Positions 12,901-64,000 of a stretch of 64,000 bases of DNA are shown here, piece after piece. A program made the position numbers and the translations under genes. The notes below the pieces were generated by a model. That model was not told the origin of the DNA. It made no database searches and saw only the letters and a list, made by a program, of their open reading frames with translations. Each line of letters opens with the position of its first letter. Position 1 is the first letter of the stretch. Source of the DNA: Owenia fusiformis (Eukaryota > Annelida > Polychaeta > Sabellida > Oweniidae); the NCBI GenBank assembly GCA_903813345.2, contig CAIIXF020000010.1, positions 16,999,181 through 17,063,180 of the forward strand. The letters run 5' to 3'.

Positions 12901-15900
12901 AAGCAATTTGTGATAGACACCAAGCACCAAATGTGGACACTGCATGAAGTCACAAACAAGGCATTTACATGAAAATTTCACCACCTGCCATTTATTAGAC
13001 ACCAACGGCAGACTGGTGAACAACATCCACAAAAAAATGGAGACACTAGGTGGTGACATAAAACTGGTGGCTGAAATATGTCAGTTTATTATGTCATCAC
13101 CAAGAAGTTGATATTACCCATATGCACGAAATAACCAATAACGTGGAAAAACAAATTTTGGAAATAATAGAGATAAAATATATATTTGATCATGATATTT
13201 CTTGATATTATTATGATCAACTCTCCATTAATTAGCATAAATCAATTGCTACATTCACTCACAGACATAACTGATCTCAACTCATTGATGAAATATGCAA
13301 GTCAAAATCATGTTGTTGTGTTATTCATATAATGATTGTGCTCATATATTGTTTTCGGTAATCTCTGGTACCCTTTCGGGTCTTCTAGTTATGTTAGCCA
13401 TCTTGTACATGTGGAAAGATCAGCTGAATACATGTACAGTAAAACTTGTATATAGTGAACATTTTTTTGCCAAGAAAAAACGTTCACTGTGGGTAGGTGT
13501 TCACTAGAGAGAGGGTAATTTATACAGAAGTCAGTGGACTATGTGCGTAGGAAGGGTGTCCACTAGGGACAGGTGTTCACTAGAGAGAGGTGTTCACTAA
13601 GACATGTTTTACTGTATATAATTATATGATTATTGTACCTTAAATGATGTTATGTAATGTGAGAGTTATTAACCCAACACATGTGATATCAAATATGGGT
13701 TAAATTAAGGGAAAGTATTGGGCATGGGAGTTGTAACTATTCTTCTTGAAAACTATACTAAATTCCAGAAACATAAATGACTACCATGTCTATTGGCGAC
13801 AGGCAGAACCATCAGAGTATCAAGTCAAATCAAGACATAATAATTTCTGTCACGGTAATGCGTAAAGCTTATCTGACCTTATTTTTGAACAAGTTTACAA
13901 GACCTAAGATTGCATGTAAATTCAATTGTGGCGTTCAATATATAAACCTATTCATTCATACCGTAACTTAAATTCATATTTAAAAATGCAAAATAATAAT
14001 GATCACAATACTTTATTCAAAATTGGCATTTCAGTACATACATATACAGCACAAAGGCTTAATGAAAGTAACAGTAAAAAGGAGTATGAAACAATTGAAG
14101 CATTTTTAAAAAAGCATTTTACAATGATTCAGACTATTAGTATACGAGTACTGTGATAGGTGCCATGCTATTACTAGCGGAGTAATGAAATTATAGAGGT
14201 TTTGCTTACTATTCAGAGCTTCACAAAGCTAGAATCTCCAAGATTAAAATGTACAATTCTGTCTAAAAGTTCTGATTCATTTGGAAATGTAAATCTTGAA
14301 CGAATAGTATATTTGTTAGTTGTATCATTTTAATGGCTCATACTGTCATATGCTCATTTTAACTAGTGTTGTCGCGATTAATTGATACATCGCGATATAC
14401 ATCGCCAAACCTGATTCTGACGATGTTTTGTTTCAGACATCGATGTTTTAAAAAATTAAATTTGCTAAACATCACCCTTTCTTGACGGACAATCATCATT
14501 CTTGATGCAAATGTCTTGCCTTTCTCATGTCTAAGTTCATTTTCCAATGTTCTCTGGCATTCTTTCACTTTAAAACTGTTAAGCTAGTCGAAATGAACCA
14601 TTAATCGAATTTTTTTTACTTAACTTTCACTTCACTGTTACCGGAAGTTCCACAGATGCACCAGCGTTCTATTATTTATTTGACTTTTTCTCGATGTACA
14701 TCGCGATTGCCGATGCATCGATGCGCGATTATGGCACATAGCGACAATGGTACTGGTATTACGTGGTATATACTTTACAGGTCACCCTGAAGAGGTCCAT
14801 ATAGAAGCTATCAATTTTTTATTAGGAAAATATTATGTGCAAAGCTGTTTTAAATGTTGTCCATATAAGAGTGTGAATAAACTGATAAGACTTCATTGTC
14901 TTCTTTATATTTCTTATTAAATAAGAATAAGTTTGTTGATTAATTTGTAGATTCCTGGCCTACTGCCTCCTCTTCATTTCCACTAAATTCAACTGTTTTT
15001 CCATATGCAGATTTTGTTGTTTCCATGGGAACATGCTCTATGATGTCATCCATCTCTGGGTCATGGCCCTCATCTTCTTCCGAGTTATAGTCATTCTCAT
15101 CACCTTCCCCATCTTCTGCTTCTTCGACATTCTCAGTCATGCGTGCCTTCTTCTTTAAACCCTACAGGTAGAACATACATTTATTAAAGATCATTTTATC
15201 TTATTGTCCAACAGCAGATATTGGTATGTTTTCAAACCAATGGGATAATGAACATCTAAATTCCTGGCTATTTCAACTATTTTCCCATCAACAGATTTTG
15301 TTGTTTCCATTGGAACATGCTCTGTGATGTCATCCATCTCTGGGTTATGGTCCTCATCTTCTTTTGAGTTGTTGTCAATTTCATCACAATCCTCGTTTTC
15401 TGCTTCTTCAAGATTCTCAGTCATGCATGCTTGTTTCCTCAAACCCTACATTTAGAACATACACTTATTAGTTATTAGAGATCATAGTATCAAATTGTCC
15501 AACAGGAGATACTGGCATGCTGTCATGTTAAATTCCTGGTTATTTAATAAATATGGAATGTGTCTTATATTGTTCACCAAGAGTGGTCTAAAATGAGATT
15601 TTTGCTCCTGATATTTATGTTTCTGCTTCATATTGTATTGCCAAGACTTTCTCTTCATTATCTACAGATTCAGGAGCTTTGAATGTCAAATGTTCCAGTT
15701 GCAAGTTAGCATGCATAGAGAGCCCAATATAAGTCCCAAAATTGAGATTTTCTCCTTGTTTTATCAGTACTGAGAGAGCAGAGTTGAACTTGAAGTCAAA
15801 CAACTGGAAATACACAAAACCAACACTATCAATAGTAGTGGTTTGAAATTATTAAAAATTGGTTGTTTGTACATTTTTCAGAATATCTGAATCTTCAGAA

Positions 15901-18900
15901 TGATCGAAAATTAGAATTTTGTTCACAGTCAGAAATGAGTTTTTGAGATATGAGGAAATAGTGTTATCAGGGTTTCATGAGCAGCAGGCAACAGGCAATT
16001 TTCACTGGTTGTTTTCACAAAATTGCCTGTTGTTTATAGGGACTTTTCAACTTTTCCATGTTAAATTTCTGATTACCATTAATTTTGCCTGTTGTTTTAA
16101 TTTATTTAGCATGTTGTGAGAAATTTCAGTGAAACCCCTGGTTATCTCATATGTTTAATTTTTCCACATTCAAATATTACGAAAACAAAAATTTGTTTAT
16201 TAATTCCAGTCAATCCAAGTAACTGGTAAAATTATTGAGAGCAAAAATATCAGAATATAAAAGCTAAGCCAGAAACATAAAAAATCAGGAACAAAAGCTA
16301 AGGCAGTGTGACCTCATTTTACTGAGACATAATTTCTGGTCACTATACTGTTCACAGAAGTTATAACTCTTGAACTTTTATATACACATTCAGAAGCCAT
16401 TAACTTTAGTTTGCTTGATAAGTATTGACAGATAGTAAGGCATGATATATCAAATTCCATCCAATCAGATCACAGCATTATTAATAATAATATGCATTTT
16501 GAATTTCACAACACAAAATACATCTCTATTCTTGAGATTTAGTGAAATTGATTATTTCATAATTTCAAGTCTGCAGTTGAGTGAAAACCTATAAATAATA
16601 TCATAGGGAATTGCAAGGGATGTGCTAATGCAGGTAAAATTGGCAAAAAGGTTTAACATTGTAAAACACTTCCAAAAAGTGTATGAAAAGAATTTAAGCA
16701 CATAGACTCAATGAATTTTGGCTTCTTGCCTCATTCAAAGTCTTGATACAAGACATGTGTGGTTTAAATCATCTACAATACATGTATATTGAATCTGGGG
16801 CTTAAATCCTTAAGTAACACTAAAACCTAAAAAAACAGAAAATATAAAAAATAGCCAAGACTTTAGACACTTAATCTATGTTAGGTAAAGGATAAATTTC
16901 TTTAAGGAGAATATGAGGTTTTGTAATATAGTTCTTAATTAGTTACATAGTATAAGAAAGTATTGTAATTACCTTGTTCATTCAGCAAGCAAGTTGGGTT
17001 AGATGCAAAAGGTTAGGTGTGCACGGATGAAGTTAGGTAATATTTCAAAACAAACTGAATTTATGCGTAGTATGGTAGTATCCATAAAGCAGCCAACGAC
17101 GTTGGATTCTGTGTAAATAACACCACATCATCGTATAGTAAGTCATGCGACCCACATGATAGAAGTCATTGGTTAGATTAGTCTCAGGATGGAAGCCAGG
17201 TCAACCTAATGACAGATGTTAGGTTGACCTCATGATATAAGTCAGGTTAACCTCATTATAGTAGTCAGGTTAACCTCATGATAGTGGTCAGGTTAATCTA
17301 ATGACATATTTCAGGTTAATCTCATGATATAAGTCAGGTTAACCTAATGACAGATATTAGGTTGAAATCATGATAGAGGTCAGATTAATATGTCCAGTTT
17401 AGTCTTGCATCAATACCCTTTGTTCCAAATCTCTTGCATGGTGTAGTGGAACCTGTGACTTGATGCAAGGCTACTAAACAAGGACTAAAATGCCAAAACA
17501 GGCAAGTGGTGCAAATAGTCATAATGTGTAACACCCTTAGAATATGAGAAGAGTACTCCTGAATATAAAGAACTATTGAACTATTCTACTAAAGTGTGTA
17601 AAAATGTAATAACAAGGATGGGTTGTATGTTAATTGTCTTTTTATTATGTCTACAAGATCATCCAGAAAACAGGCCAAAGACTTTTTCTTGTAAACTAGT
17701 TTTAGACTTTGACTTTCAGGAGTTTTCTTTCGACTGGACATTGCCTTGCTTTTTAAGAGAAAAGGCAAAAACAAAAAAGCATGTGCCGCCAGTTAAAGAT
17801 AATTCATGTTTGAAAGACAATGTAGGGGCCATAACTTGTAGGGGCCATAACTAAAGTATAAAAGCTGGGAAATATCTGAAAAAATATTATCAATTTGATC
17901 AGTGTCTATTCTTTGTGCCTCTATTATAAACCTAAACCTGTAGTCTCAGTTTATTGTGCTCCAGGGATATCATATGTAGTATTGACAGTCAACTAGTCGA
18001 TGATCATACTCTAAATCCTGTAAATCGCCAAAACTCTTCCTTATAGGAGTTTAACAGGGAATATTCATTTAAATGTAAATCAATGGGACTTGATTTCTTT
18101 AAGATTGCTCAATATAGATATTACTTGCAGTAAGGCTTTCCATCAAACAACTGTTGAACTGTGTATTGCACTGACTACACCATACATAGCATTTATTGTA
18201 TAATTGGTATTTAATCCGAGTGGTTAATTTGCCAAATGAAACTTCCCATTGGTTTAATTATGAACATAATATTTCCGACATTTAATTTTCCAAACCTGGC
18301 AGAAATTAGGCAACAGGCAAAATTACCACTTATACAGTATTTACCACTTATACAGTATTGGGCAAAATCACCACTTATACAGTAATTACCGCTTATACAG
18401 TATTTAAAGATATTAAACTATATTGGGGGAATGGTACCTTGATCCACTTATATGAAAGGATGCTTAAATACTAACAAGAATGAAATGAGTATATATCACC
18501 TACCACCATTTCTGCTGCTTTACTGGTCAGAGCCACCTCTGCCAAATACGAAACTGTTTCCTGAATATATTCCAGCTCAACTCTCACTTGGTCCATAGCC
18601 TGGGTGGGGATCTCCCGCATGCGTTTAGTCTGCAAGTATGAATAAAGCATGACAAAAGATGACAACATGCAAATGGTTACAAAGTGTAATAACAACTTGT
18701 ACAGACACGAACACCTAATCTCAGTCACAACAAAAGGTAGCTATAACAATATGTCACAACTTTGTAGTGGTGACATATAAATAAAGTAAAATGACAAACA
18801 AATAATTTAAAATAATCAAAAGTATGCAAAGACAAGGCATTAACATGACAAAATGTCACCACCTAGTTGCTCACAATATTAAGTCAGATTTGAATTTCTG

Positions 18901-21900
18901 AGAACTTGTAAAGTCAAATTTGAACTTCTGAAAAGATGTAGACCTTTTTTGACCTTGAGAAGGTCATTAAAGGTCAAATGTCAAATCTAAAGTCAGATTT
19001 GAATTTCTGAGAACATGTAGATGATTTTGAAAAAAAAAATTAGTCAATTTGAAGCAAGTTGAAAAAAGACCTTTTTGACCTTTTTAGACCTTGAGAAGGT
19101 CATTGAAGGTCAAATGTCAAATCTAAAGTCAAATCTAAAGTCATATTTGAATTTCTGAGAACATGTAGATGATTTTGAAAAAAAATTTAGTCAATTTGAA
19201 GCAAGATGAAAAAATACCCTTTTGACCTTTTTTGACATTGAGAAGGTCATTGAAGGTCAAATGTCAAATCTAAAGTCAGATTTGAATTTCTGAGAACATG
19301 TAGATGATTTTTTTAGTCAATTTGAAGCAAGTTTAAAAAAGACCTTTATGACCTTTTTTGACTTTGAGAAGGTCATTGAAGGTCAAATGTCAAATCTTAA
19401 GTCAAATCTAAAGTCAGATTTGAATTTCTGAGAACACATAGATGATTTTGAATTTTTTTTTAGTCAATTTGAAGCAAGTTGAAAACAGACCTTTTTGACC
19501 TTTTTTGACCTTGAGAAGGTCATTAAAGGTCAAATGTCAAATCTAAAGTCAGATTTGAATTTCTGAGAACATGTTGATGATTTTGAAAAAAAAAATTAGT
19601 CAATTTGAAGCAAGTTGAAAAAAGACCTTTTTGACCTTTTTTGACCTTGAGAAGGTCATTGAAGGTCAAATGTCAAATCTAAAGTCATATTTGAATTTCT
19701 GAGAACATGAAGATGATTTTGAAAAAAAATTTAGTAAATTTGAAGCAAGATGAAAAAATACCTTTTTGACCTTTTTTGACATTGAGAAGGTCATTGAAGG
19801 TCAAATGTCAAATCTAAAGTCAGATTTGAATTTCTCAGAACATGTAGATGATTTTGAAAAAAAAATTTAGTCAATTTGAAGCAAGTTGAAAAAAGACCTT
19901 TTTGACCTTTTTTGACTTTAAGAAGGTCATTGAAGGTCAAATGTCAAATCTTAAGTCAAATCTAAAGTCAGATTTGAATTTCTGAGAACACGTAGATGAT
20001 TTTGAAAATTTTTTTAGTCAATTTGAAGCAAGTTGAAAACAGACCTTTTTGACCTTTTTTGACCTTGAGAAGGTCATTGAAGGTCAAATGTCAAATCTTA
20101 AGTCAGATTTGAATTTCTGAGAACACGTAGATGATTTTGAAAAAAAAATTTAGTCAATTTGAAGCAAGTTGAAAACAGACCTTTTTGACCTTTTTTGACC
20201 TTGAGAAGGTCACTGAAGGTCAAATGTCAAAACTAAAGTCAAATTTGAATTTCTGAGAACATGTAGATGATTTTGAAAAAAAAATTTAGTCAAATTGAAG
20301 CAAGTTGAAAAAAGACCTTTTTGACCTTTTTTGACTTTAAGAAGGTCATTGAAGGTCAAATGTTAAATCTTAAGTCAAATCTAAAGTCAGATTTGAATTT
20401 CTGAGAACACATAGATGATTTTGAAAATTTTTTTTTTAGTCAATTTGAAGCAAGTTGAAAACAGACCTTTTTGACCTTTTTTGACCTTGACAAGGTCATT
20501 GAAGGTCAAATGTCAAATCTTAAGTCAAATCTTAAGTCAGATTTGAATTTCTGAGAACACGTAGATGATTTTGAAAAAAAATTTTAGTCAATTCGAAGCA
20601 AGTTGAAAACAGACCTTTTTTACCTTTTTTGACCTTGAGAAGGTCATTGAAGGTCAAATGTCAAATCTAAAGTCAGATTTGAAGGTCAAATGTCAAATCT
20701 AAAGTCAGATTTGAATTTCTGAGAACATGTAGATGATTTTGAAAAAAAATTTAGTCAATGTGAAGCAAGTTGAAAAAAGACCTTTTTGACCTTGAGAAGG
20801 TCATTGAAGGTCAAATGTCAAATCTAAAGTCAGATTTGAACTTCTGAGAACATGTAGATGATTTAGAAAAAAATTGAAGTCAGTCTAAACAGTATTTGTT
20901 AAGTTATAGGAAGTTGTAAGAAATTGTTACAGACGCCGGACGCCAACCGCCAACCGCTGGACGCCAACCACCAACCGCCGGACGCCGTCGAAAAAAAATG
21001 GAGACCATAACAATATGTCACCACTTTTGGTGGTGACATAAAAATAATGATGCCTAGATAATAGAATTAGGTGAATCTGTAAATAGAGACTGTGTAATTC
21101 ACTATTTTACTGATCACTATTTTACTTTACAAAATTGATAGTTAATTGGACATTCAAATAATTTCCTTTGAAGGAAATCTTCACTGTTTAACTTTATGAG
21201 TTAAAATTTACCATGGCAGCCAATGGTAAAAACTAATATTCAAAAATTGTTCATATAAAGGTGTTCAAGAGTTTTCAATGTTTTACAGTACTTACATCAG
21301 TGAGTGTGGAATATACAGCCTTTGAGAATCCCTGCGCATTACTAAGTCTCTCTTGCACACTGCCTGGCAGCATTTTGTACGAGTCCTTTGTCATATTGAG
21401 ACCCCTTCTAAGCTGCATAGCCAAGCTACGAGCTAGCAGAATCCCTCTTCGCTCCATTGTCTGTCATACAAAAGCAAATGTAAAAACTTGGCAAATGATA
21501 AATAACAAGTGCAGTGCCCTGCTTATTGAATGGCTTATTATTACCACATAGAGAATACAAAAATGCATGTAACATTACATATATTGTTAGTAATTTCAAA
21601 GCGTCTTTTATATCCACACATTTTATGTTACACATTGCACTTCATTAATAAGATCAGTAAAATCACTGTTCCACAACTGGATGACTCTAACTGCAGTTAG
21701 CTTCATTCAAGATGGTTGCCGAGATCATTTCGTTTTCGATAAACCTCCGATTTCAGCTAAAATAAGTTGAATCTGGATTCCAAATGTTTCGCCATGCAAA
21801 TTAATAAAGCTACGATGGTAAATAACCACAAATAAATGCTCAAACAACCGCGATATTGGATAATTTTAAAGAAAACGGCTTCACTTAGAATGACTCTAAC

Positions 21901-24900
21901 TGAAGTTGATGATGACGTCATGATGGCGTAGATCATCAACTTCAGTTAGAGTCATTCTAAGTGAAGTCGTTTTCTTTAAAATTCTCTAATATTATGGGTG
22001 TTAGAGCATTCATTTGTGGTTGAATACAATCATAGTTTTATTAATTTGCATGGCGAAACTTTTGGAATCACGATTCAACTTAGTTTAGCTAAAATCGGAG
22101 GTTTATCGAAAACGAAAGAATCTCGGCAACCATCTTGAATGAAGCTAACTGCAGTTAGAGTCATCCAGTTGTGGAACAGTGAAAATAAGCAATTCCATTC
22201 AACAATAATTTGAAAACATCAGTTTTGGACTTATACCAAAAATAATCATACTTTGGAACTGTTAGGAATAGCCCAATAGACTTTCATGTATTACAAGTGG
22301 GTGGGTAGGTGGAATAGCATTGAAATAAATTATGTGTAGAAATTAATGCTATAACTGATATGAAAAACTCGCATATACCATTTTAGGCTCCACTTCGTAG
22401 ATTTCAACATCTTCTCCCTCAGCCGCCTCCACACTCTTATCTTTCGCCTCCAAAACCTTTGCTTCCTCTTCTACCTTGGAGATCTCATTCCAGTAGTAAG
22501 ATGCCTTGTCCTTTGCACTATCCAAGTTACTCTGGGCATACTGGATCTATAACACATATAGAAAGTTTTACGAGGGTTGTTCAAAGACTTCTTCATGTTG
22601 TTTCTAAAACACTTTAGAACAACTGTGACATAGTTTTTGGTTTATTATTTAAAAATTAGTACCGTGGGTACTGGGCTCACATGGTGACAGAAAAAACCGG
22701 ATATAATTTTTTGCTGATTTTTTGTAACAAAATTATTTCAAGCCACTTGCCACTATTTTGGACTGACTGAGAGACAGATGGACAAATCGATGTTAAGTAA
22801 AATGGCTGAGAAAAAAGACGGATATAATTTTTTGCCAATTATTTGGAACAAAATTATTTCATACAACTACTCTTTACAGTGACATGGCTTTTTGCAATGC
22901 AAGACACCTGAAATTATTTGTAAAGCTAGGAAATAGGCCAAAATTGAATTTCGCGAGACAAAAATGGCGACCATATTGAAATCAGGCAAGCTTTTGAACC
23001 AGGAGTCATAGGGGAGTTTTTTTGTATTGATGTTGAACAAAAATAATGTGAAACTGGAATCCTATCGACAGAGGTTTTAAGCAAATGGTTCAAAAGAGGA
23101 TTTCGCGAGACAGATGGACAAATCATCAATGTTAACTAAAATGGCTGAAAATAAATAAACAGATATAATATTTTGCCGATTTTTTGAAACAAAATTATTT
23201 CATACAACTACTCTTTACAGTGACACGGCTTTTTACAATGCAGGACAGCTGGAATTATTTGTAAAGCTAGGAAATGGGCAAAAAGTGAATTTCGCGAAAC
23301 AAGAATGGCGACCATTTTGAAAATAGGCGAGCTTTTGAACCAAGAGTCATAGGAGAGTTTTTTGTATTGATGTTGAACAAAATTAACTTAAAACGGAAAT
23401 CCTATCGACAGAGGGTTTAAGGTAAATGGTCCAAAAGTGGATTTTGCGAGACAGATGAACAAATCAATGTTAACTAAAATAGCTGAAAATAAAAAAAATT
23501 GATATAATTTTTCGCTGATTTTTCGTAACAAAACTCTTTCATACATCTACTCTTTACATTGACATGGATTTTTACAATGTAGGACACTTGAAATTATTTG
23601 TAAAGCTAGGAAATGGGTCAAAAGTGAATTTCGTGAGACAAAAATGGCGGCCATTTTGAAAATAGGCGAGCTTTTGAACCAGGAGTCATAGGGGAGTTTT
23701 CTGTATTGATGTTGAACAGAAATAACTTAAAACTGGAATCCTATCGACAGAGGTTTTAAAACGTGCCACTGTTATTGACGGAAAGTGGATTTCGCGAGTC
23801 AGATAGACAAATCAATGTTAACTAAAATGGCTGAAAATAAAAAAATGGATATAATTTTTCGCTGATTTTTTGTAACAATATTATTACATATATCTACCCT
23901 TTACATTGACATGGATTTTTACAGTGTAGGACAGCTGAAATTATTTGTAAAGCTAGGAAATGGGTCAAAAGTGAATTTGGCGAGACAAAAGTGACGGCCA
24001 TTTTGAAAATAGGCGAGCTTTTGAACCAGGAGTCATAGGGGAGTTTTCTGTTTTGATGTTGAACAGAAATAACTTGAAACGGAAATCCTATCGACAGAGG
24101 TTATCAAACAAATGGGTGAAAAGTGAATTTCGCGAGACAAAAGTGGCGGCCATTTTGAAAATAGGCGAGCTTTTGAACCAGGAGTCATAAGGGAGTTTTC
24201 TGTATTGATGTTGAACAGAAATAACTTAAAACAGGAATCCTATCGACAGACGTTTTAAAACGTGCCACTATTGTTGACGGACGGACAGACGGACGGACGG
24301 ACAGACGGACTGATGCTGATCTCCATTTCCTGGTTTTAAAGCATTTGAATGTACACTTCAAATGAGAGGATTTTTCCGTGAACTTATTGAACGACCTGGT
24401 ATATGTGATCACTTATGCTGGACAATTAGTAGATGGGTTTAGAAATGTTTACTCTATTGAAGGACTATGTGTATATACTATTAAAGGAATGCAATAAATC
24501 AAATTTAAGTACATTTTGTCAGACATTTGTTTACTGTTAAACTTCAGTCTGGGTTCCCTTGAACTGCTATTTAGGTTAAAATATGGAACAAGCAAGATTA
24601 GCAAATACTTAGCTAAAAATGATATAAATGATTTTTTAGTTTGTATTTTAATAAATTAAATTAATTAATTAATTTTCTTTGAAACAGAGAGTGAAGATAC
24701 ATTCAACATTTTCTTAAAACTTCAATTGCCTAAGTGTTTATAGATTTACAATATATTATATTATAGTATATAATATATATTTAATATATTTATCCTAAGT
24801 GAAACATACCAAGTCCACAGTAAAGTTCAATCTGTTCAAAGTGTCTTTACTTCGCTTCTGAATGTTTGCCAAATCGGACATAGCTTTGTTGTAGAGTCTA

Positions 24901-29429: not shown

Positions 29430-29599
29430 TTTTTTTTCCAGATGCTTTCGTCTCATTCACTGAAAGTAAAGTGCTCAATGAGATAAGCCAGAGGATGGTG
29501 AAAAACTGGTGACAATCATTTACTGGCCAAAATACATATCGCAAAATAATCAAGAAATTGGGGTAATCAGATGCTGATTTTCAAGTGATATGCAATGGG

Positions 29600-29745: not shown

Positions 29746-29840
29746 TATATCTCCATGTTTTAGGTGTACCAGGAAAATCGCGGAAACATAACAAAATTTT
29801 GTTTTTATTGTAATTACCCTAAATAGATCTAGCCTAGTAT

Positions 29841-38965: not shown

Positions 38966-38999
38966 TACATTAATTGATGGATATACTGACACTGACGTC

Positions 39000-41527: not shown

Positions 41528-41530
41528 ACA

Positions 41531-53900: not shown

Positions 53901-56900
53901 CTTCTAAACTCTCATTTGTTGATTCCTTGCTTGCATCCTCCTTTTCATTTCCACTAGATGCAAATCCTCTAAGGTCAGCAGATTCTGATGTAAGCATTGA
54001 CAGGAGTTTATGAATCTTTGTCTCAACATTCTCATTTTTCGATTCCTTGCCCGAAGCTACTTCCTGGTCAGCAGATTTTGTTGTTTCTGTGGAAGCAAGT
54101 TCATCAGTCTTTCCTTTTTCAACATTCTCATTTAAAGATTCCTTGCCTGCAACTATTTCCTGGTCAGCAGATTTTGTTGATTCAATGGTAATGAGTTTAT
54201 CAGTCTTTGCTTCTTCAATATTCTCATTTGTGGATTGCTTGCCTGCAACTATTTCCTGGCCAGCGGAATTTGTTGTTTCCAGTGAAACGAGTTCAAGAGT
54301 CTTTGCTTCTTGAACACTCTGATTTGTAGATTCGGTGTCTGCAATTATTTCCTGATATGCAGATATTGTTGTTTCCGTGGAAACAAGCTGTTCAACAGTC
54401 TTTGCTTCTTCATTATTCTCATTTGTCGATTCTTTGCCTGCAACTATCTCCTGGTCAACAGATTTTGATGTTTCCGTTTTCTCAATTGTGGATTCCTTGC
54501 CTGCAACTATTTCTTGGTCAGCAGATGTTGTTATTTCCATGGAATTGAGCTGCTCACCAGTCTTTGCTTCTTCAACATTTTCATTTATGGATTCCTTGCC
54601 TGCAACTATTTCCTGGTCAGCAGATATTGTTGTTTCCTTGGAAACGAGCTGTTCATCAATCTTTGCTTCGTCTACATTCTCATTTGTTGATTCCTTGCCT
54701 GTAACTATTACCTGGTCAGCAGGTTTTGTTGTTTCCCTGGAAATGAGTTCATCAGTATATGACTCTTCACCATTCTCATTTGTGGATTCCTTGCTTGCAA
54801 CCATTTTCTGGTCAGCAGATGATGTTGCCTCCATGAAAACGAGTCCACAAGTATTTGCTTCTTCAACTTTCTCATTTGTTGATTCCTTGCCTGTAACTAT
54901 TTCCTGGTCAGAAGATTTGGTTGTTTCCGGGGAAACGAGCTGTTCATCACTCTTTGCTTCTTCAACATTCTCATTTGTAGATTCATTGTCTGCAACTACT
55001 TCCTGGTCAGCAGATTTTGTTGATTCCATGGAAACAAGTTCATCAATCTTTGTTTCTTCAACATTCTCATTTGCTGTTGTAACCATAGAAACGAGTTCAC
55101 GAATCTTTGCTTCTACACTCTCATTTGTTGATTCCTTGCTTGCAGCCTCCTTTTCATTTCCACTAAATGCAAATCCTCCAAGGTCACCAGATTTTGATGT
55201 AAGCATTGAGAGGAGTTTATGAATCTTTGCGTCAACATTGTCATTTGTGGATTCCTTGCCCAAAACTACATCCTGGTGATCAGATTTTGTTGATTCGGCA
55301 GAATCGAGTTCATCAATCTTTGCTTCTTCAACATTCTCATTTGTGGATTCCTTGCCTGCAACTATTTCCTGGTCAGCAGATGTTGTTGTTTCCGTTGAAA
55401 CGAGCTGTTCATCAGTCTTTGCTTCATCAACATTCTCTTTTGAGGATTCCTTGCCTGCAACTATTTCCTGGTCAGCAGATGTTGTTGTTTCCGTTGAAAC
55501 GAGCTGTTCAACAGTCTTTGCTTCTTCAACATTCTCTTTTGAGGATTTCTTGCCTGCAACTATTTCCTGGTCAGCAGATGTTGTTGTTTCCGTTGAAACG
55601 AGCTGTTCACCAGTCTTTGCTTCTTCAACATTCTCATTTGTGGATTCCTTGCCTGCAACTATTTCCTGGTCAGCAGATGTTGTTGTTTCCGTTGAAACGA
55701 GCTGTTCATCAGTCTTTGCTTCTTCAACATTCTCTTTTGAGGATTCCTTGCCTGCAATTGTTTCCTGATCAGCAGATGTTGTTGATTCCGTGGAAACGAT
55801 TTCATCAATCTTTCCTTCTTCAACATTCTCTTTTGTAGATTCATTTCCTGCAACTGTTTCCTGATCAGCAGATGTTGTTGTGTCCGTGGATACGAGCTCT
55901 TCATCAGTCTTTGCTTCTTCAACATTCTCTTTTGTGGATTCCTTCCCTGCAACTAATTCCTGGTAAGCAAAATTTGTTGTTTCATTAGAAACGAGTTCAC
56001 CGGTCTTTGCTTCTTCAATATTCTCATTTAAAGATACCTTGCCTGCAACTATTTCCTGATCAGCAGATTTTGTTGCTTCCTTGGAAACGAGTTCACCAGT
56101 CTTTGCTTTTTCAACATTCTCATTTGTGGATTCCTTGCCTGCAACTATTTCCTGATCAGCAGATTTTGTTGCTTCCTTGGAAACGAGTTCATCAGTCTTT
56201 GCTTCTTCAACATTCTCATTTGTGGATTCCTTGCCTGCAACTATTTCCTGATCAGCAGATTTTGTTGCTTCCTTGGAAACGAGTTCATCAGTCTTTGCTT
56301 CTTCAACATTCTCTTTTGTGGATTCCTTCCCTGCAACTATTTCCTGGTCAGCAAATTTTGTTGTTTCAGCAGAAACGAGTTCACCGGTCTTTGCTTCATC
56401 AATATTCTCATTTGAAGATATCTTGCCTGCAACTACTTCCTGATCAGCAGATTTTGTTGCTTTCTTGGAAACGAGTTCACCAGTCTTTGCTTCTTCAACA
56501 TTCTCATTTGTGGATTCCTTGCCTGCAACTATTTCCTGCTCAGCAGATTTTGTTGCTTCCTTGGAAACGAGTTCATCAGTCTTTGCTTCTTCAACATTCT
56601 CATTTGTGGATTCCTTGCCTGCAACTATTTCTTGATCAGCAGATTTTGTTGCTTCATTGGAAACGAGTTCATCAGTCTTTGCTTCTTCAACATTCTCATT
56701 TGTGGATTCCTTGCCTGCAATTATTTCCTGGTCAGAAGATTTTGTTGTTTCCTCGGAAATGAGTTGGGAAAGTTTTGTGTGTTCAACATTCTCATTTGTG
56801 GATTCTTTGTCTGCAACTATTTCCCGGTCAGCAGATGCTGGTGATTCTGTGGAAATGAGTTTAACAGTCTTTGCTACTTCAATATTCTCATTTTCTGATT

Positions 56901-59900
56901 CCTTTTCAATTCCAGAAAATTTAACTCCTTCCTGGTCAGCAGGTTTTGTTGCAACCATTGAAACGAGTTCATGAATTTTTGCAGCTACATTCTCATTTGT
57001 AGTTACCATGCTTTTAACCTCATTTTCATTTAAACTGCATGTAACCCCTTCAAGGTCAACAGATTTTGATGAAACCATGGAAATAAGTTCACGAATCTTT
57101 GCTTCTACATTCTCCTTTGTAGATTCCATGCTTGCAGGCTCATTTTCACTTCCTTCAAGGTCATCAGACTTTGAGCTAAGTATCAAAAGGAGTTGATGAA
57201 TCTTCGCTTCAATATTATCATTTGAAGAATCGTTGCCTGCAACTTCTTCCTGCTCAGCAAATAATGTTGTTTCCATGGAAACGACTTCGCAAGTCTTAGC
57301 TTTCTCAACATTTTCATTTGTAGATTCCATGCCTGCGACTATTTCATCCTTAGCAGATTTTGTTGTTCCGTTGGAAAGGAGTTCATAAGTCTTTGCATCT
57401 TCAACATTATCATTTACGGATTCCTTGTCAGCAACCATTTTCTTGTCAACAAATTTTGTTGTTTCCGTGGAAACAAGCTGTTCACCAGTGTTTGCTTCTT
57501 CAACATTCTCATTTGTGGATTCCTTGCCTGTAATTATTCCTTGGTCAGCAGATTTTGTTGTTTCCGTGGAAGGGAGCACATCAGTCTGTGCATCTTCAAC
57601 ATTCTCATTTGTGGATTCCATACCTGCAAATATTTCCTGGTCGGCAGATTTTGTTGTTTCCATGGAAGTGAGTTCATCAGGCGTTGCTTCCTCAGCATTA
57701 TCATTCGAAGATTCCTTGCCTGGAACTATTTCCTGGTCAGCAGATTTCATTGATTCAGAGGTAACAAGTTCATCAATCCTCGTTTCTTTAACATTTTCAT
57801 TTGCTAATTTCTTCCCTGAAGCCTCCTTTTCAGTTCCACTAAATTCAACTCCTTCCTGATCAGCAGATTTTGTTGTAACTATTGAAATAAGTTCACGTAT
57901 CTTTGCTTCTACATTCTCATTTGTAGTTTCCATGCTTGCAGTCTCCTTTTCATATCCACTTAATGTATCTCCCTCCAGTTCAGCAGATTTTGATATAAGT
58001 TTTGAAATGAGTTGATGAATCTTTGTTTTAACATTCTCATTCATTGATTCCTTGCCTGCAACTATTTCCTGGTTATCAGATTTTGTTGTTTCCGTGGAAA
58101 CGAGTTCATCAATCTTTGCTTCTTCAACATTCTCATTTGTAGATTGCTTGCCTGCAACCATTTCCTTGTTAGCAGATGTTGTTGCTTCCGTGGAAACGAA
58201 ATCACAAGTCTTTGCTTCTTCAGTATTTTCATTTGTGGATTCCCTGCCTGCAACTATTTCCTGGTCAGCAGATTTTGATTTTTCCATAGAAACGAGTTCA
58301 GAAGTGTTTGCATCTTCAATATTTTCATTTGTGGATTCCCTGCCTGCAACTATTTCCCTTTCAGGCGATTTTGTTGCTTCCATAGAAGTGAGTTCATTAG
58401 TCTTTGCTTCTTCAATATTTTCAATTGTTGATTCCTCGCCTGCAACTATTTCAGGATCAGGTGATTTTGTTGTATCTTTGGAAACGAATTGGTCATCAGT
58501 CTTTGCTTCTTCAACATTCTCATTTGTTGACTCCTTGCCTGGAATTATTCCCTGGTCTGCAGATTTTGTTGTTTCTGTGGAAGCGAGTCCACCAGTCTTT
58601 GCTTCTTCAACATTCTCAGTTGTGGATTCCTTACCTACAACTATATCCTGGTCCGCATATTTTATTTCATTGGAAACGAGTCCACAAGTTTTTGCTTCTT
58701 TAATATTTTCGTTCGTGGATTCTCTGTCTGCAATTACTTCCTGGTCAGCAGGTTTTGTTGTATTTGCTTCCTCAAGAGTCTCATTTGTTGATTCCTTGCC
58801 TGCAGCTATTTCGTTGTCAGTAGATTTTGTTGATTCCGTGGAAACAAGCTCATCAGTCTTTGCTTCTTCAACATTCTCATTTCCTGATTTCTTGCCCGCA
58901 GCCTCCTTTCCACTTTTACTAAATGCAAGTCCTTCCCGATCAGCAGATTTTGTTGTAACCATAGAAACAAGTTCACGTATCTTTGCTTCTACATTTTCAT
59001 TTGAACTTTTCGTGCTTGCAGCCTCCTTTTCATTTCCACTTAATGCAACTCCTTCAATGACAGCAGACCTTGATGTAAGTATTGATAGGAGTTGATAAAT
59101 ATTTGCTTCAACATTTTCATTTGTGGATTCTTTGCCTGCAACTACTTCCTGGTCAGCAGATTTTGTTGTTACCATGGAAACGAGTTCATCAGTTTTGGTC
59201 ATTTCGTTGCCTGCAACTATTTCCTGGTCAGCAGATTTTGATGTTTCCGATGCAACGAGGTCATCAGTTTTTGTTTCCTCAACATTCTCATTTGTGGATT
59301 CCCTGCCTGCAACCATTTCCTGTTCAGTAGGTTTTGTTGTTTCCATGGAACCATGTTCACCAGTCAATAATCCTTCAGCATTCTCATTTGTGGATTCCTT
59401 GCCTGCACTTATTTCCTGGTCAGTAGATTTTGTTGTTTCCATGGAAACGAGTTCATCAGTTTTGGTCATTTCCTTGCCTGCAACTATTTCCTGGTCAGCA
59501 GATTTTGATGTTTCTGTTGAAACAAGTTCATCAGTTTTTGTTTTCTCAACATTCTCACTTGTGGATTCCTTGCCTGCAACTATTTCCTGTTCAGTAGATT
59601 TTGTTGTTTCCGTTGAAACATGTTCATTAGTCTTTGCTTCTTCGGCATTCCCATTTGCAGATTCCTTGCCTGCAACTATTTCCAGGTCAGTAGATTTTGT
59701 TGTTTCTATTAAAACAGGTATCTCAGTCTTTGATTCTTCAATATTCTCGTTTAAAGATTCCTTGCCTGCAATTATTTTCTGGTCTACAGATTTTTTTGTT
59801 TCCATGGAAAGGAATTCACCAGTCTCTGCTTCTTCAACATTCTCACTTGCCGATTCCTTGCCTGCAATTATTTCCTGGTCAGTAGATTTTGTTGTTTCCA

Positions 59901-62900
59901 TTGAAACAAGTATCTCAGTCTTTGATTCTTCAATATTTTCCTTTAAAGATTCCTTGCCTACAACAATTTCCTTGTCAGCAGATTTTGTTGACTCCTTGGA
60001 AACGAGTTCATAAGTCTTTGCTTCTTCACCATTATCATTTGCTGATTTTTTGACAGCAGTCTTCTTTTCAATTCTAGTAAATTCAACTCTTTCCTGGTCA
60101 GCAGATTTTGTTGAAACCATGGAAACAAGCTCATGAATCTTTGATTCTATATTTTCATTTGTAGTTTCTTTGCTTGCTGCCTCCTCTTCATTTCCAATTA
60201 ATGTAACTCCTTCCAGGTCAGCAGATTTTGATGTAAGTATCGAAAAGATATCATGAATCTTTGCTTCAACATTCTCATTTGTGGATTCCTTGCCTGCAAC
60301 TATTTCCTGGTCATCAATTTCCTCAGTCTTTGCTGCTTTAACAATCTCATTTGAAGATTCCTTTCCTGCAACTACTTCCTTGTCAGGAGATGTTGTTGTT
60401 TCCATGGAAACGAGTTCACAAGTCTTTGCTTCTTCCACATTCTCATTTGTGGATTCCTTGCCTGCAACTATTTCCTGGTCAGCAGATGTTGTTGTTTTCA
60501 TAGAAACAAGTTCACAAGTCTTTAGTTCTTGAACATTCTCATTTGTGGATTCCTTGTCTGGGATTACTACCTGGTCAACAGATTCTGTTGTTTCCTTCGA
60601 ATCGAGTTCTTCAGTCTTTGCTTCTTCAATATCATCCTTTTCTGATTCCTTGCATGCGGGCCTGTTTTTATTTTCACTTGATTTGTCTTCTTCCTTGTCA
60701 GCAAATTGTCTTGTTTCAAGGGAGAGAAGTTTAGGAGTCTTCGTTTCTTTAACATTCTCATTTACGGATTCCTTTCCTGCATCTTTTTCCTGGTCAGCAG
60801 ATTTTGTTGTTTCTCTGGAAACGACTTCACCAGTATTTACTTCTTGGTAATTTTCATTTAAGGATCTCTTGCCTGCAACTATTTCCTGGACAACAGATTT
60901 TGTTGGACCCAGGGGAATGAGTACTTCAGTCTGTTCATCTTCATCGTACTCATTTGTGGATTCCTTACCTGCAACCATTTCCTGGTCAGCAGATGTTGTT
61001 GTTTCCTCGGAAACGAGTCCATCATTCTTTGCTTCTTCAATATTCTCATTTGTGGATTCCTTGCCTTCAATTATTTCCTGGTCGCGAGATTTCATTGTTT
61101 CCTCGGAAACGAGTTCACCATTCTTTTCTTCATCAAAATTTGCATTTGTGGATTCCTTTCCTGTAATTATTTCCTGTTCAGCAGATTTTGTTGATTCGGG
61201 GGGAAAAATTTCATCAGTCTTTGCTACTTTGACATTCTCATTTGAAGATTCCTCGCCTGCATCTATTTCCTGGTCAGCAGATTTTGTTGTTTCAATTGAA
61301 CCGAGTTCATCAGTTTTTGTTTCTTTAACATTCTCATTTTTGGATTCCGTACCTTCAACTATATTCTGGTCAGCAGATTTTGATGTTTCCATGGAAATAA
61401 TTTCACAAGTGTTTGCTTCTTCAACAATCTTATTTGTGGATTCATTTTCTGCAACTATTTCCTGATCAGCAGATTTTGTTGTTTTCATGGAAACATGTTC
61501 ATCAGTCTTTGTTCCTTCAACATTCGCATTTGTCGTTTCCTTGCCTGCAACTATTTCCTGGTCATCAGATTTTGTTGATTCTGTTGAACCGAGTTCATCA
61601 GTTTTCATTTCTTCAACATTCTCATTTGTGAATTCCTTGCCTGCAACTATTTCCTGGTCAGCAGATTGTGTTGTTTCCGTCGAAACGAGTTTGTCAGTTT
61701 TGGTTTCTTCAACTTTCTCATTTGTTGATTCCTTGCCTCCAACTATTTCCTGGTCTGCAGATTTTGTTGCTTTCAACGAAACAAGTTCACAGGTATTTAC
61801 TTCCTCAACATTCTCATTTATGGATTCAATTTCTGCAACTATTTCTTGGTCAGCAGATTTTGTTCTTTCCGTGGAATCATGTTCATCAGGCTTTGTTTCT
61901 TCAACACTCTCATTTGTAGTTTCCTTGCCTGCATCTATTTCTTGGTCATCAGATTTTGTTGTTTCCGTTAAACCGAGTTCATAAGTTTTTGTTTCTTCAA
62001 CATTTTCATTTGTGGATTCCTTACTTGCAACTATTTCCTGGTCTCCAGATTTTGTTGTTTCCATGGAAACGAGTTCACAAGTGTTCGCCTCTTGAACAAT
62101 CTTATTTGAGGATTCATTTTCTGGAACTATTTCTTGGTCAGCAGAATTTGGTGTTTCCATGGCAACATGTTCACCAATCTTTGGTTCTTCAATATTCTCA
62201 TTTGTCGTTTCCTTACCTGAAACTTTTTCCTGGTCATCAAATTTTGTTGTTTCTCTTGAACCAAGTTCATCAGTTTTTATTCCTTCAACATTCTCATTTG
62301 GAGATTCCTTGCCTGAAACTGTTTCCTGGTCATCAGATTTTGTTGTTTCAGTTGAACCGAGTTCATCAGTTTTTATTTCTTCAACATTCTCCTTTGGGGA
62401 TTCCTTGCCTGCAACTATTTCCTGGTCAGCAGATTTTGTTGTTTCCGTGCAAATAAGTTCATCAGTTTTTGCTTCTTCAACATTCTGATTTGTCGTTTCC
62501 TTGCCTAAATCTATTTCCTGGTCATCCGATTTTGTTGTTTCTGTTAAACCGAGTTCATCAGTTTCTATTTCTTCAACATTCTCATTTGTGGATTCCTTGC
62601 CTTCAACTATTTCCTGGTCAGCAGATTTTGTTGTTTCCCTGGAAACGAGTTTATCAGTCTTTGCTTCTCCAACATTCGCATTTGCCGATTCCTTGCCCTC
62701 GACTATTTCCTGGTCAGCAGATGTTATTGGTTCTGCGGAAACGAATTCCCCAGACTTTGTTTCTTGAACAATCTTATTTGTGGATTCATTTTCTTCAACT
62801 ATTTCCTGGTCAACCGATTTTGCTCTTTCCATGGAAACAAGTTCCTCAGTCTTTGCTGCTTCAGCACTCTCCTCTAAAGATTTCTTGGCTGCTTTTGCTG

Positions 62901-64000
62901 TTTCCAAGGAAACATATACAGAAGTGTTTGCTTTTTGAACTATTTCCTGGTCATCCAATTTTGTTGTTTCTGTTGAACTGAGTTCATCAGTTTTTGTTTC
63001 TTCTACATTCTCAGTTGTGAATTCGTTGCCTATAACCATTTCCCTGTCAGCAGGTTTTGTTGTTTCAGTGAAAACGAGTTCATCAATCTTTGCTCCATCA
63101 ACATTCTCATTTGTCATTTCCTTGCCTGCAACTATTTCCTGGTCATTAAATTTCCTGGTTTCTGTTGAACCGAGTTCATTATATTTTGTTTCTTCAACAT
63201 TCTCATTTGCTGTTTCCTTGCCTTCAACTATTTCCTGGTCAGCAGATTGTATTGTTTCCGAAGAAAATAATTCATCAGACTCTGCTTCTTCAAAATTCTC
63301 CATTGGGGATTCCTTGCCTGCAACTATTTCCTTGTCAGTAGATTTTGTTGTTTCCATGCAAATAAGTTCATCAGTCTTTGCTTCTTCAACATTATCATTT
63401 GTCGTTTCCTTGCCTAAATCTATTTCTTGGTCATCCGATTTTGTTGTTTCTGTTGAACTAAGTTCATCAGTTTTCATTTCTTCAACATTCTCATTTGTGG
63501 ATTTCTGGTCAGCAGATTTTGTTGTTTCCGTGGAAACGAGTTCATTAGTCTTTGCTTCTTCAACATTCTCAGTTGCTGATTCCTTGCCTTTGACTATTTC
63601 CTGGTCAGCAGATGTTATTGGTTCTGCAGAAACGAATTCATCAGACTTTGTTTCTTGAACAATCTTATTTGTGGATTCATTTTCTGCAACTATTTCCTGG
63701 TCAACAGATTTTGCTCTTTCCGTGGAATCAAGTTCCTCGGTCTTTGCTTCTTCAACACTCTCCTTTAAAGATTCCTTGGCTGCTTTTGCTATTTCCATGG
63801 AAACATATTCAGAAGTGTTTGCTTTTTGAACTATTTCCTGGTCATCCGATTTTGTTGTTTCTGCTGAATTGAGTTCATCAGTTTTTGTTTCTTCTACATT
63901 CTCATTTGTGAATTCGCTGCCTGCAACTATTTCCTGGTCAGCAGATTTTGTTGTTTCAGTGAAAACGATTCCATCAATCCTTGCTCCGTCAACATTCTCA
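50935..64000 (-). CDS. Giant acidic tandem-repeat protein, 5' partial, at least 4354 aa in one exon
   Basis: The frame is open from the stop at 50935 through the window edge; the first Met seen, at 63798, is internal because the repeats continue upstream of it. It consists of roughly 130 units of 32-33 residues: TNENVEEAKTDELVS followed by TETTKSADQEIVAGKES. Seven places carry longer units with AKIHKLLSMLTSKSADLEG and VAFSGNEKEAAS (near 51.2, 53.95, 55.15, 57.0, 57.9, 59.0 and 60.15 kb). Composition is Glu/Asp/Lys/Thr/Ser-rich and almost free of Cys, Trp and aromatic residues. No signal peptide or membrane helix was seen, so it is probably disordered. Many SxxE/TxxE sites could be phosphorylated by casein kinase 2. 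Homology to acidic exons K and L of the perilipin locus is clear. The family and function are unknown. No in-frame stop in 13 kb of repeats implies selection or very recent expansion. Confidence 0.85.
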   Translation of the reverse strand, partial: ENVDGARIDGIVFTETTKSADQEIVAGSEFTNENVEETKTDELNSAETTKSDDQEIVQKANTSEYVSMEIAKAAKESLKESVEEAKTEELDSTERAKSVDQEIVAENESTNKIVQETKSDEFVSAEPITSADQEIVKGKESATENVEEAKTNELVSTETTKSADQKSTNENVEEMKTDELSSTETTKSDDQEIDLGKETTNDNVEEAKTDELICMETTKSTDKEIVAGKESPMENFEEAESDELFSSETIQSADQEIVEGKETANENVEETKYNELGSTETRKFNDQEIVAGKEMTNENVDGAKIDELVFTETTKPADREMVIGNEFTTENVEETKTDELSSTETTKLDDQEIVQKANTSVYVSLETAKAAKKSLEESAEAAKTEELVSMERAKSVDQEIVEENESTNKIVQETKSGEFVSAEPITSADQEIVEGKESANANVGEAKTDKLVSRETTKSADQEIVEGKESTNENVEEIETDELGLTETTKSDDQEIDLGKETTNQNVEEAKTDELICTETTKSADQEIVAGKESPKENVEEIKTDELGSTETTKSDDQETVSGKESPNENVEGIKTDELGSRETTKFDDQEKVSGKETTNENIEEPKIGEHVAMETPNSADQEIVPENESSNKIVQEANTCELVSMETTKSGDQEIVASKESTNENVEETKTYELGLTETTKSDDQEIDAGKETTNESVEETKPDEHDSTERTKSADQEIVAEIESINENVEEVNTCELVSLKATKSADQEIVGGKESTNEKVEETKTDKLVSTETTQSADQEIVAGKEFTNENVEEMKTDELGSTESTKSDDQEIVAGKETTNANVEGTKTDEHVSMKTTKSADQEIVAENESTNKIVEEANTCEIISMETSKSADQNIVEGTESKNENVKETKTDELGSIETTKSADQEIDAGEESSNENVKVAKTDEIFPPESTKSAEQEIITGKESTNANFDEEKNGELVSEETMKSRDQEIIEGKESTNENIEEAKNDGLVSEETTTSADQEMVAGKESTNEYDEDEQTEVLIPLGPTKSVVQEIVAGKRSLNENYQEVNTGEVVSRETTKSADQEKDAGKESVNENVKETKTPKLLSLETRQFADKEEDKSSENKNRPACKESEKDDIEEAKTEELDSKETTESVDQVVIPDKESTNENVQELKTCELVSMKTTTSADQEIVAGKESTNENVEEAKTCELVSMETTTSPDKEVVAGKESSNEIVKAAKTEEIDDQEIVAGKESTNENVEAKIHDIFSILTSKSADLEGVTLIGNEEEAASKETTNENIESKIHELVSMVSTKSADQERVEFTRIEKKTAVKKSANDNGEEAKTYELVSKESTKSADKEIVVGKESLKENIEESKTEILVSMETTKSTDQEIIAGKESASENVEEAETGEFLSMETKKSVDQKIIAGKESLNENIEESKTEIPVLIETTKSTDLEIVAGKESANGNAEEAKTNEHVSTETTKSTEQEIVAGKESTSENVEKTKTDELVSTETSKSADQEIVAGKEMTKTDELVSMETTKSTDQEISAGKESTNENAEGLLTGEHGSMETTKPTEQEMVAGRESTNENVEETKTDDLVASETSKSADQEIVAGNEMTKTDELVSMVTTKSADQEVVAGKESTNENVEANIYQLLSILTSRSAVIEGVALSGNEKEAASTKSSNENVEAKIRELVSMVTTKSADREGLAFSKSGKEAAGKKSGNENVEEAKTDELVSTESTKSTDNEIAAGKESTNETLEEANTTKPADQEVIADRESTNENIKEAKTCGLVSNEIKYADQDIVVGKESTTENVEEAKTGGLASTETTKSADQGIIPGKESTNENVEEAKTDDQFVSKDTTKSPDPEIVAGEESTIENIEEAKTNELTSMEATKSPEREIVAGRESTNENIEDANTSELVSMEKSKSADQEIVAGRESTNENTEEAKTCDFVSTEATTSANKEMVAGKQSTNENVEEAKIDELVSTETTKSDNQEIVAGKESMNENVKTKIHQLISKLISKSAELEGDTLSGYEKETASMETTNENVEAKIRELISIVTTKSADQEGVEFSGTEKEASGKKLANENVKETRIDELVTSESMKSADQEIVPGKESSNDNAEEATPDELTSMETTKSADQEIFAGMESTNENVEDAQTDVLPSTETTKSADQGIITGKESTNENVEEANTGEQLVSTETTKFVDKKMVADKESVNDNVEDAKTYELLSNGTTKSAKDEIVAGMESTNENVEKAKTCEVVSMETTLFAEQEEVAGNDSSNDNIEAKIHQLLLILSSKSDDLEGSENEPASMESTKENVEAKIRELISMVSSKSVDLEGVTCSLNENEVKSMVTTNENVAAKIHELVSMVATKPADQEGVKFSGIEKESENENIEVAKTVKLISTESPASADREIVADKESTNENVEHTKLSQLISEETTKSSDQEIIAGKESTNENVEEAKTDELVSNEATKSADQEIVAGKESTNENVEEAKTDELVSKEATKSAEQEIVAGKESTNENVEEAKTGELVSKKATKSADQEVVAGKISSNENIDEAKTGELVSAETTKFADQEIVAGKESTKENVEEAKTDELVSKEATKSADQEIVAGKESTNENVEEAKTDELVSKEATKSADQEIVAGKESTNENVEKAKTGELVSKEATKSADQEIVAGKVSLNENIEEAKTGELVSNETTNFAYQELVAGKESTKENVEEAKTDEELVSTDTTTSADQETVAGNESTKENVEEGKIDEIVSTESTTSADQETIAGKESSKENVEEAKTDEQLVSTETTTSADQEIVAGKESTNENVEEAKTGEQLVSTETTTSADQEIVAGKKSSKENVEEAKTVEQLVSTETTTSADQEIVAGKESSKENVDEAKTDEQLVSTETTTSADQEIVAGKESTNENVEEAKIDELDSAESTKSDHQDVVLGKESTNDNVDAKIHKLLSMLTSKSGDLGGFAFSGNEKEAASKESTNESVEAKIRELVSMVTTANENVEETKIDELVSMESTKSADQEVVADNESTNENVEEAKSDEQLVSPETTKSSDQEIVTGKESTNEKVEEANTCGLVFMEATSSADQKMVASKESTNENGEESYTDELISRETTKPADQVIVTGKESTNENVDEAKIDEQLVSKETTISADQEIVAGKESINENVEEAKTGEQLNSMEITTSADQEIVAGKESTIEKTETSKSVDQEIVAGKESTNENNEEAKTVEQLVSTETTISAYQEIIADTESTNQSVQEAKTLELVSLETTNSAGQEIVAGKQSTNENIEEAKTDKLITIESTKSADQEIVAGKESLNENVEKGKTDELASTETTKSADQEVASGKESKNENVETKIHKLLSMLTSESADLRGFASSGNEKEDASKESTNESLEAKIHELVSMVTSANENVEEAKTDELASTETKTSADQEMLAGNESTNEKVENAKTDEFSSTETTKSAGQGIITNKESTNENVEEAKIGEQLVSTETTKSADQVIVTGKESTNENVEEAKGDEQLVSTDTTTSADQETVAGKESTKENVEEGKIDEIVSTESTTSADQETVAGKESSKGNVEEAKTDEQLVSTETTTSADQEIVAGKESSKENVEEAKTDEQLVSTETTTSADQEIVAGKESTNDNVEGAKGDEQLVSTETTTSADQEVVAGMESTNDNVEEAKTDEQLVSTETTTSADQEIVAGKESSKENVEEAKTDEQLVSTETTTSADQEIVAGKESTKENVEEAKTDEQLVSTETTTSADQEIDAGKEYTKENVEEAKIDELDSTETTSADQEIVAGKESTKENVEEAKIDEQLVSTDTTTSADQEIVAGKESTKENVEEAKTDEQLVSTDPTKSADQGIITSKESTNENVEEAKTGEQLVSSETTKSEEAETDEQLVSTETTTSADQETVAGKESSKENVEEAKTDEIVFTATTTSADQEIVAGKESTNENVEEAKTDEQLVSTETTTSADQEVVAGKKSTNENVEEAKTDEQLVSTETTTSADQEVVAGKKSTNENVEEGKTDEQLVSTETTTSADQEIVAGKETSKDNVEEAKTDEKLVSTETTISADQEIVAGKESSKENVEESKTDEQLVSTETTTSADQEIVAGKESTKENVEEAKIDELDSTETTTSADQEIVAGKESTKENVEEAKIDEQLVSTDTTTSADQEIVTGKESTNEAVEEAKTDEQLVSTDTTSADQETVAGKESSNENVEKATTDELVSAETKKSDDQGIIEDKESTNENVEAKIHKLLSILSSKSADLEEVAFSGNEKEAASKESKNENVEIKIRELVSMVTTKSADPEEVAFSESGKEAAGRKSANRNVEEAKTDEPVSTKTTKSTDQEIVASMESSNGNVEEAKTDQLVSAEAAKSGDQDKVVGTE

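Follow-up and report, generated by a model that had tools for sequence, protein, structure and literature searches.

A giant acidic repeat exon in Owenia fusiformis, probably a perilipin last exon amplified in place in one tandem gene copy

The giant repeat frame located in a 64,000-nt stretch of the Owenia fusiformis genome (hereafter, the window) is, to judge from sequence comparisons, very probably the final coding exon of one of several tandem perilipin copies, amplified in place. A genome search combined with exon-by-exon comparison revealed three perilipin copies, termed C, B and A, arranged in that order and all on the minus strand. The giant exon is assigned to copy B. One genome features the path from no repeat unit (a paralog on contig C7) to one (copy A), two (copy C) and about 150 units (copy B), and full-length, intermediate and shortened units can still be read within one exon. 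This makes it possible to trace directly how an ordinary exon turned into a giant repeat exon.

The window corresponds to C10:16999181-17063180 of a 498-Mb assembly. We added 40 kb of upstream DNA and 10 kb of contig C7 (L013, C7:2270001-2280000). Extended coordinates are genomic C10 positions minus 16,999,180. Features are listed in Table 1.

Table 1. Perilipin exons and repeat features in the window and in the upstream DNA (e, exon; ext., extended coordinates)
Feature	Position	Strand	Remarks
Exon L, last exon of copy A	14940..15161	-	phase 0; homolog of the giant exon's start
Exon K, last exon duplicated locally in tandem	15194..15445	-	has acceptor; open to stop at 15193-15191; absent from deposited protein
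Copy A e1	29234..29429	-	from MAEEQF; deposited model starts 27 nt upstream, at 29456
Copy A e2	28905..28987	-	exon model vs P0001
Copy A e3	28481..28570	-	exon model vs P0001
Copy A e4	25561..25725	-	exon model vs P0001
Copy A e5	25264..25384	-	exon model vs P0001
Copy A e6	24810..24991	-	exon model vs P0001
Copy A e7	22379..22546	-	exon model vs P0001
Copy A e8	21296..21460	-	exon model vs P0001
Copy A e9	18504..18629	-	exon model vs P0001
Copy C e1-e5 (ext.)	e1 from 89616, e2 ~89226, e3 87794, e4 86951, e5 86534	-	exon comparison
Copy C e6-e9 (ext.)	e6 86215, e7 85802, e8 85347, e9 82889	-	exon comparison
Copy C decayed extra last exon (ext.)	80766-80583	-	exon comparison
Copy C last exon (ext.)	from 78193	-	two units, then stop
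Copy B (ext.)	e5 74107, e6 73704, e7 73057, e8 72493, giant exon from 66585	-	
Giant last exon, copy B (ext.)	66585-50935	-	15,651 nt including stop; 5,216 codons + TAA
Giant exon, part in window	50935..64000	-	ORF listing
About two decayed, frame-shifted units 3' of stop	50740..50934	-	by reading; blastn match of L at 50899-50811
Pair of 40-residue units	51124..51363	-	amphipathic helix-like stretch; one of 7 such clusters
Other 40-residue clusters (starts)	60279, 59121, 58041, 57222, 55245, 54036		unit parsing

Inside the window, 4,354 codons of the repeat frame (63999 to 50935) are free of stops; the frame extends to 66606 and, stop to stop, spans 5,223 codons. The predicted product of the giant exon (568 kDa, pI 4.2, net charge -800) is rich in threonine, and 85 of its 5,216 residues are aromatic. 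A profile of the array units matches it 153 times (i-E < 1), and the number of units, which range from 32 to 64 residues in length, is about 150. At least 78 genome matches to a unit query (79 candidates scored) all fall within the single open frame of the copy B giant exon. The deposited protein P0012 (402 residues) is a 100% match to an internal segment (65994-64789) and has no Pfam match, and neither exon L nor the array belongs to any Pfam family. A query with residues 1-1000 of the window frame matched none of the proteins of about 2,395 to 7,620 residues (scored for the 1,244 candidates that shared most words); deposited proteins of this size range thus yielded no full-length giant product. 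A 698-residue composite query retrieved P0012 and P0001 alone among the matches listed (7,988 candidates scored). Sequence matches of the array in the PDB (8vd6 and 2ymu) likely reflect composition, and were set aside on that view. The window was empty when scanned with Rfam (gathering threshold) and for tRNA, and a phage collection, the search of which carries no weight here, yielded no match.

The stop of the giant exon appears, by eye and in unaligned sequence (50936-50740 region), to have resulted from a small deletion. As this stop is followed by about two decayed units, the giant frame was probably once longer.

A genome search with P0003, a query spanning e7 to the last exon, gave 19 matches, 17 on C10 and 2 on C7; perilipin copies outside these contigs were judged from this search alone. 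Copy A is intact, and its nine exons and L make up the deposited P0001 protein (514 residues), letter for letter. Residues 12-431 of P0001 match the perilipin family PF03036 at 203.8 bits (cutoff 33), from the PAT domain to the bundle. P0003, a piece of copy C, and P0002, the C7 paralog, also score above the cutoff. The family profile matches by sequence the C-terminal structure of PLIN3 (1SZI, a four-helix bundle) at 7.4e-28, and 1szi ranked first in a fold search for copy A, at an E value of 0.089 obtained with a weak model. Copy C is complete: e1-e9 and the last exon code for a 529-residue protein containing P0003, with an e4 donor that, as chosen in our reading, is shifted relative to that of copy A.

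Copy B is rearranged, as evidenced by exons that are missing in place and sequences that are displaced. Exons e1-e4 were not found between 77870 and 66585 at E < 0.5, and e9 was not found at the expected place; a displaced fragment of e9, interrupted by a stop, is located at 77582-77517, and intron-9 sequence also precedes B e5. Exons e5-e8 are open and flanked by AG/GT splice signals. Their dN/dS is 0.27 relative to copy A and 0.36 relative to copy C, which by our own arithmetic, splitting the two values, leaves about 0.49 on the B branch; the dS of e5-e8 between copies is 0.32-0.38. No PAT domain or 11-mer region of its own was found in copy B; with e1-e4 and e9 missing, B alone would lack the PAT domain. 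This part of the protein could be supplied by copy C via splicing.

A 23-bp minisatellite in intron 9 of copy A (17171-17389) matches stretches of the B and C copies (extended 76324-75734, 82393-81734 and 80282-79743). In C, the matching stretches flank the decayed extra last exon on both sides; this minisatellite marks the history of the duplications.

The start of the giant exon carries the marks of a perilipin last exon. After ..TTCTACATGCAG, the exon opens with GGC TTG AAG AAG AAG (GLKKKAKTAENVEEAEDG), and the last exons of A, B and C all open with GLK, in phase 0, behind a homologous intron stretch. Residues 1-73 of the giant exon are 64% identical to L, with a dN/dS of 0.27. The 90 bp of intron preceding it resemble, by eye, those preceding L, K and the C last exon, and blastn aligned 66663-66367 to 15240-14943 (78%) and 66653-66422 to 78259-78033 (79%). 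The giant frame is in frame with B e5-e8 (5,431 residues together). The e5-e8 exons and the last exon of copy B are homologous to those of the other perilipin copies. We infer that the giant exon is transcribed and spliced to perilipin exons; among the deposited proteins found, none spans the junction into the giant exon. The original prediction had seen in the array a separate protein, apparently derived from an exon copied upstream. The acceptor side, phase and first residues, all homologous to those of perilipin last exons, identify it instead as the last exon of copy B, and what was duplicated would be gene segments including e5-e8.

Exon L lies exactly where it had been predicted, and its likeness to the array holds at both the protein and the DNA level. 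A profile built from the 40-residue array units only scores L at 26.5 bits, whereas 2,000 shuffles of L reach 8.7 bits at most; when the profile includes every parsed array unit, L scores 17.5 bits and the best shuffle 10.2. In DNA comparisons, the best of 1,000 Markov-1 shuffles reaches 33.7 bits, whereas L matches the array at both places named beforehand (57800-57875 and 60165-60240): L 142-197 aligns to 57876-57821 (82%, 57.2 bits) and L 142-222 to 60234-60154 (77%, 59.9 bits). A third match joins L 170-219 to 55172-55123 (86%, 59.9 bits).

Units vary in length along the giant exon. The 128 units parsed in the window include 73 of 32 residues, 26 of 33 and 11 of 40, while 18 have other lengths. 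As had been claimed, the longer units keep a block of the FSGNE type, which is found in the 40-residue units and is absent from the 32-residue unit. L features an additional acidic spacer of about 23 residues, seen by eye in none of the 128 window units and retained by most of the 5'-terminal units of the giant exon, beyond the window. A full L-type unit measures about 64 residues; without the acidic spacer it measures 40, and without both the spacer and the FSGNE block, 32. Nine L-type units occupy the 5' end of the exon, the second of which is truncated and the seventh of which has lost most of the spacer. Downstream, 32-residue units are interspersed with 40-residue units, mostly paired. 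Of these forms, the longer ones appear to be the older.

These observations support the derivation of the array from a small acidic last exon of perilipin. A search of deposited proteins with the exon model yielded 18 proteins among 7,969 candidates. Unit profiles match three of them (P0001, P0003 and P0012), all encoded by one Owenia chromosome; the other 15, which are the C7 paralog and 14 perilipins, carry no unit, none scoring above 0.4 bits. The last exon of the C7 paralog opens with GLKGKPGW and is acidic but lacks a unit, and its tail, cut out alone, scores 1.5 bits (E 31) against the unit profile. Rooted from outside by these unit-less proteins, the likely order is gain of the unit, tandem copying of the gene, and multiplication. 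The last exon would have gained one unit before perilipin gene copies arose in tandem; the unit would then have doubled in C and, in B, multiplied and become shorter. K and the decayed extra last exon of C are side duplications. The exon-to-array direction of the original prediction is supported, as is its view of the longer units as the older form, although the route differs from the one proposed.

Unit trees are unrooted and based on 32 columns. Full units of A, C and the 5' end of B fall on one side in three trees (SH-aLRT 87, 89/87 and 87/82, never starred), and 40-residue units group on one side as well (95, 99/91 and 96/77). The 18 odd-length array units and the 10-residue end of P0012 were omitted from the first (87); the two later trees (89/87 and 87/82) omit about half of the short units, and the last also lacks the 33-residue units and the truncated second unit of B. 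In the tree used for topology tests (89/87), bootstraps were not settled and two long rows meet. A clade of L, K and the 40-residue units is not rejected (p-AU 0.118), and neither is a clade of the P0003 and P0012 full units without L and K, which places L and K on the array side (p-AU 0.453). A 12-row tree restricted to full units shows no resolution. With moderate supports and two unrejected arrangements, the order cannot be read from the trees by themselves. A unit phylogeny had been suggested as a check; K and L are not found deep inside the array, and the split between full and array units is supported only moderately.

The opposite direction, in which the array gave rise to the unit and perilipins A and C captured it as their last exon, is hardly credible. 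A shared unit alone gives no direction, and the unrooted trees accommodate L and K on the array side. Yet the unit-less C7 paralog has a last exon at the same place, opening with GLK; the giant exon itself features the perilipin acceptor, the intron flank and a GLKKKA start; and A and C contain only full-type units, the type that also prevails at the 5' edge of the array.

It had also been proposed that duplication of an exon into K and L came first, followed by copying of one exon upstream and by amplification as a separate gene. K and L do exist, and are 84% identical over 189 bp with a dN/dS of 0.28. However, they are nearest to each other in the trees (SH-aLRT 90, 98/91 and 97/89; 67/17 in the 12-row tree), and the array exon sits behind e5-e8 of its own perilipin copy, making this sequence of events most unlikely. 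Since K and L group together, their duplication looks like a local side event and was probably not the first step; a similar, decayed extra last exon is present in C. An AATAAA motif is located just 3' of the K stop (15185). Given this motif and the low dN/dS relative to L, K may be a used alternative last exon.

The 73 units of 32 residues contain no stop, compared with 31 expected (14-48 in 500 simulations). Across the giant exon, stops number 0 in 5,216 codons, compared with 207 and 752 in the other frames of the same strand and 155, 62 and 136 in those of the opposite strand. The lack of stops argues for translation of the giant exon. Single residues are hardly constrained, as pooled pN/pS is 0.98 among the 73 units (0.85 among the eleven 40-residue units) and the divergence of the 32-residue units from their consensus is equal at the three codon positions. 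Net charge averages -4.9 per unit, whereas random substitution gives -3.8 (z -4.2); the units are also poorer in hydrophobic and in aromatic residues than random substitution would make them (z -3.9 each). Rates and consensus for the simulation were taken from the same units, so that the charge result is only suggestive. Frame and charge seem to be kept, and most residues not. A non-coding tandem repeat or pseudogene, open by chance, would fit a pN/pS of about 1 among the 32-residue units, the two decayed units after the stop and the decayed extra last exon in C, but is very unlikely in view of the 31 stops expected in units that have none and of the 62 to 752 stops in the other five frames.

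The giant exon might also serve as an alternative last exon of copy C, producing a complete giant perilipin of about 5,634 residues, a possibility to which we give somewhat less than even weight. Copy C e1-e9 would provide the PAT domain, the 11-mers and the bundle, and the two-unit last exon of C and B e5-e8 would be skipped. In a variant of this route, C e1-e4 would be joined to B e5-e8 and then to the giant exon. The end of C e9 and the start of the giant exon are both in phase 0, and joining them leaves an open frame; copy B, as found, lacks e1-e4 and e9; and copy A has two possible last exons (K and L), so that these genes may commonly choose between last exons. In contrast, open B e5-e8 exons with splice signals and a dN/dS below 1 would be odd if always skipped. 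Splicing from copy C shares the origin of the giant exon set out above, and does not compete with it.

Unit chemistry differs between the two main length classes. The 32-residue units have a best helical moment of 0.22, compared with 0.27 for their own shuffles, and a net charge of -6 in the consensus and near -5 on average. The 40-residue units reach 0.39, compared with 0.32 for shuffles, with a mean net charge of -1.7. AlphaFold placed helices mainly at two 40-residue units and left short units mostly as coil. Confidence in the models is low (mean pLDDT 55 and 45), and the block pLDDT of 38-58 makes the predicted helices only a hint. The perilipin part would putatively sit on lipid droplets, or its four-helix-bundle half would bind partners. 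The tail would form a long, disordered polyanionic chain, a brush keeping droplets apart or limiting lipase access, and pairs of amphipathic helices in the 40-residue units would make occasional surface contacts. We tentatively propose this arrangement, a perilipin bundle carrying an acidic brush that makes sparse contacts through amphipathic helices. Neurofilament heavy chain is a polyelectrolyte side-arm protein, in which long, disordered, charged repeat tails space structures apart. The Owenia tail may resemble it in being long, disordered, charged and repetitive, as an analogy of mechanism only.

Among ordinary perilipins (PLIN2/3-like, PF03036), to which copy A, P0003 and P0002 are similar by family match, tails are short; in contrast, copy B as found consists of the bundle half followed by 5,216 tail residues. 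A natural comparison is with PLIN4, relative to which Owenia features a perilipin with a much longer repeat and opposite chemistry. Passages of the published accounts report that PLIN4 arose in mammals through tandem duplication (PMC5342826) and has 29-31 repeats of 33 residues in exon 3 (PMC7360652), the expansion of which is linked to human myopathy (PMC7360652). The repeats are described there as 3x11-mer amphipathic helices with a net charge of +1 each, and a -1 mutant turned cytosolic in HeLa cells (PMC5889406); the repeat is rich in threonine, with 0.6% aromatics (PMC5889406, PMC7360652, PMC5342826). As far as these passages go, both systems are tandem-duplicated perilipins with a giant single-exon repeat that is Thr-rich and aromatic-poor. 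They differ in unit number and length (about 150 units of 32-64 residues in Owenia), in charge (consensus -6), in amphipathicity, the 32-residue Owenia units being less amphipathic than shuffles, and in location, the Owenia repeat being a last exon and not one built on the perilipin 11-mer region. A PLIN4-type 11-mer amphipathic helix of low positive charge was ruled out by the charge and moment of the 32-residue units; the 40-residue units are amphipathic yet acidic. The giant exon is accordingly judged similar to PLIN4 in size and genetics and independent of it in origin.

More speculatively, and with considerable doubt, the Owenia protein may represent a second, independent giant perilipin of animals, reached by a last-exon route and bearing a brush of about 570 kDa and opposite charge, in which sparse pairs of amphipathic helices would re-anchor long acidic loops at the droplet surface. 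Selection would then act on length and charge, as charge and open frame seem to be kept while single residues drift. The literature searched, mostly without subscription journals, included no paper naming both Owenia fusiformis and perilipin; by title, papers naming perilipin and an annelid deal with other matters, and those on perilipin gene-family evolution or repeat expansion describe no such case.

Other repeats and frames were noted along the DNA analysed. Two tandem arrays of about 340 bp are located at 22771-24139, in an intron of perilipin A, and at 30813-31903, just upstream of the gene, and their consensus units look, by eye, like reverse complements of each other. Two further arrays, each with a 365-bp period, lie 2.8 kb apart (42495-43885 and 46706-47749). 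On the plus strand, 2886-5716 features two open frames of 402 and 488 residues that have no Pfam match and are perhaps exons of another gene; the second contains a 27-bp repeat coding for TMDLT-like nonamers. In the 3' flank of the C7 paralog, the end of the last exon (DGSTIET, stop) is present once more, a small duplication at the same gene position.
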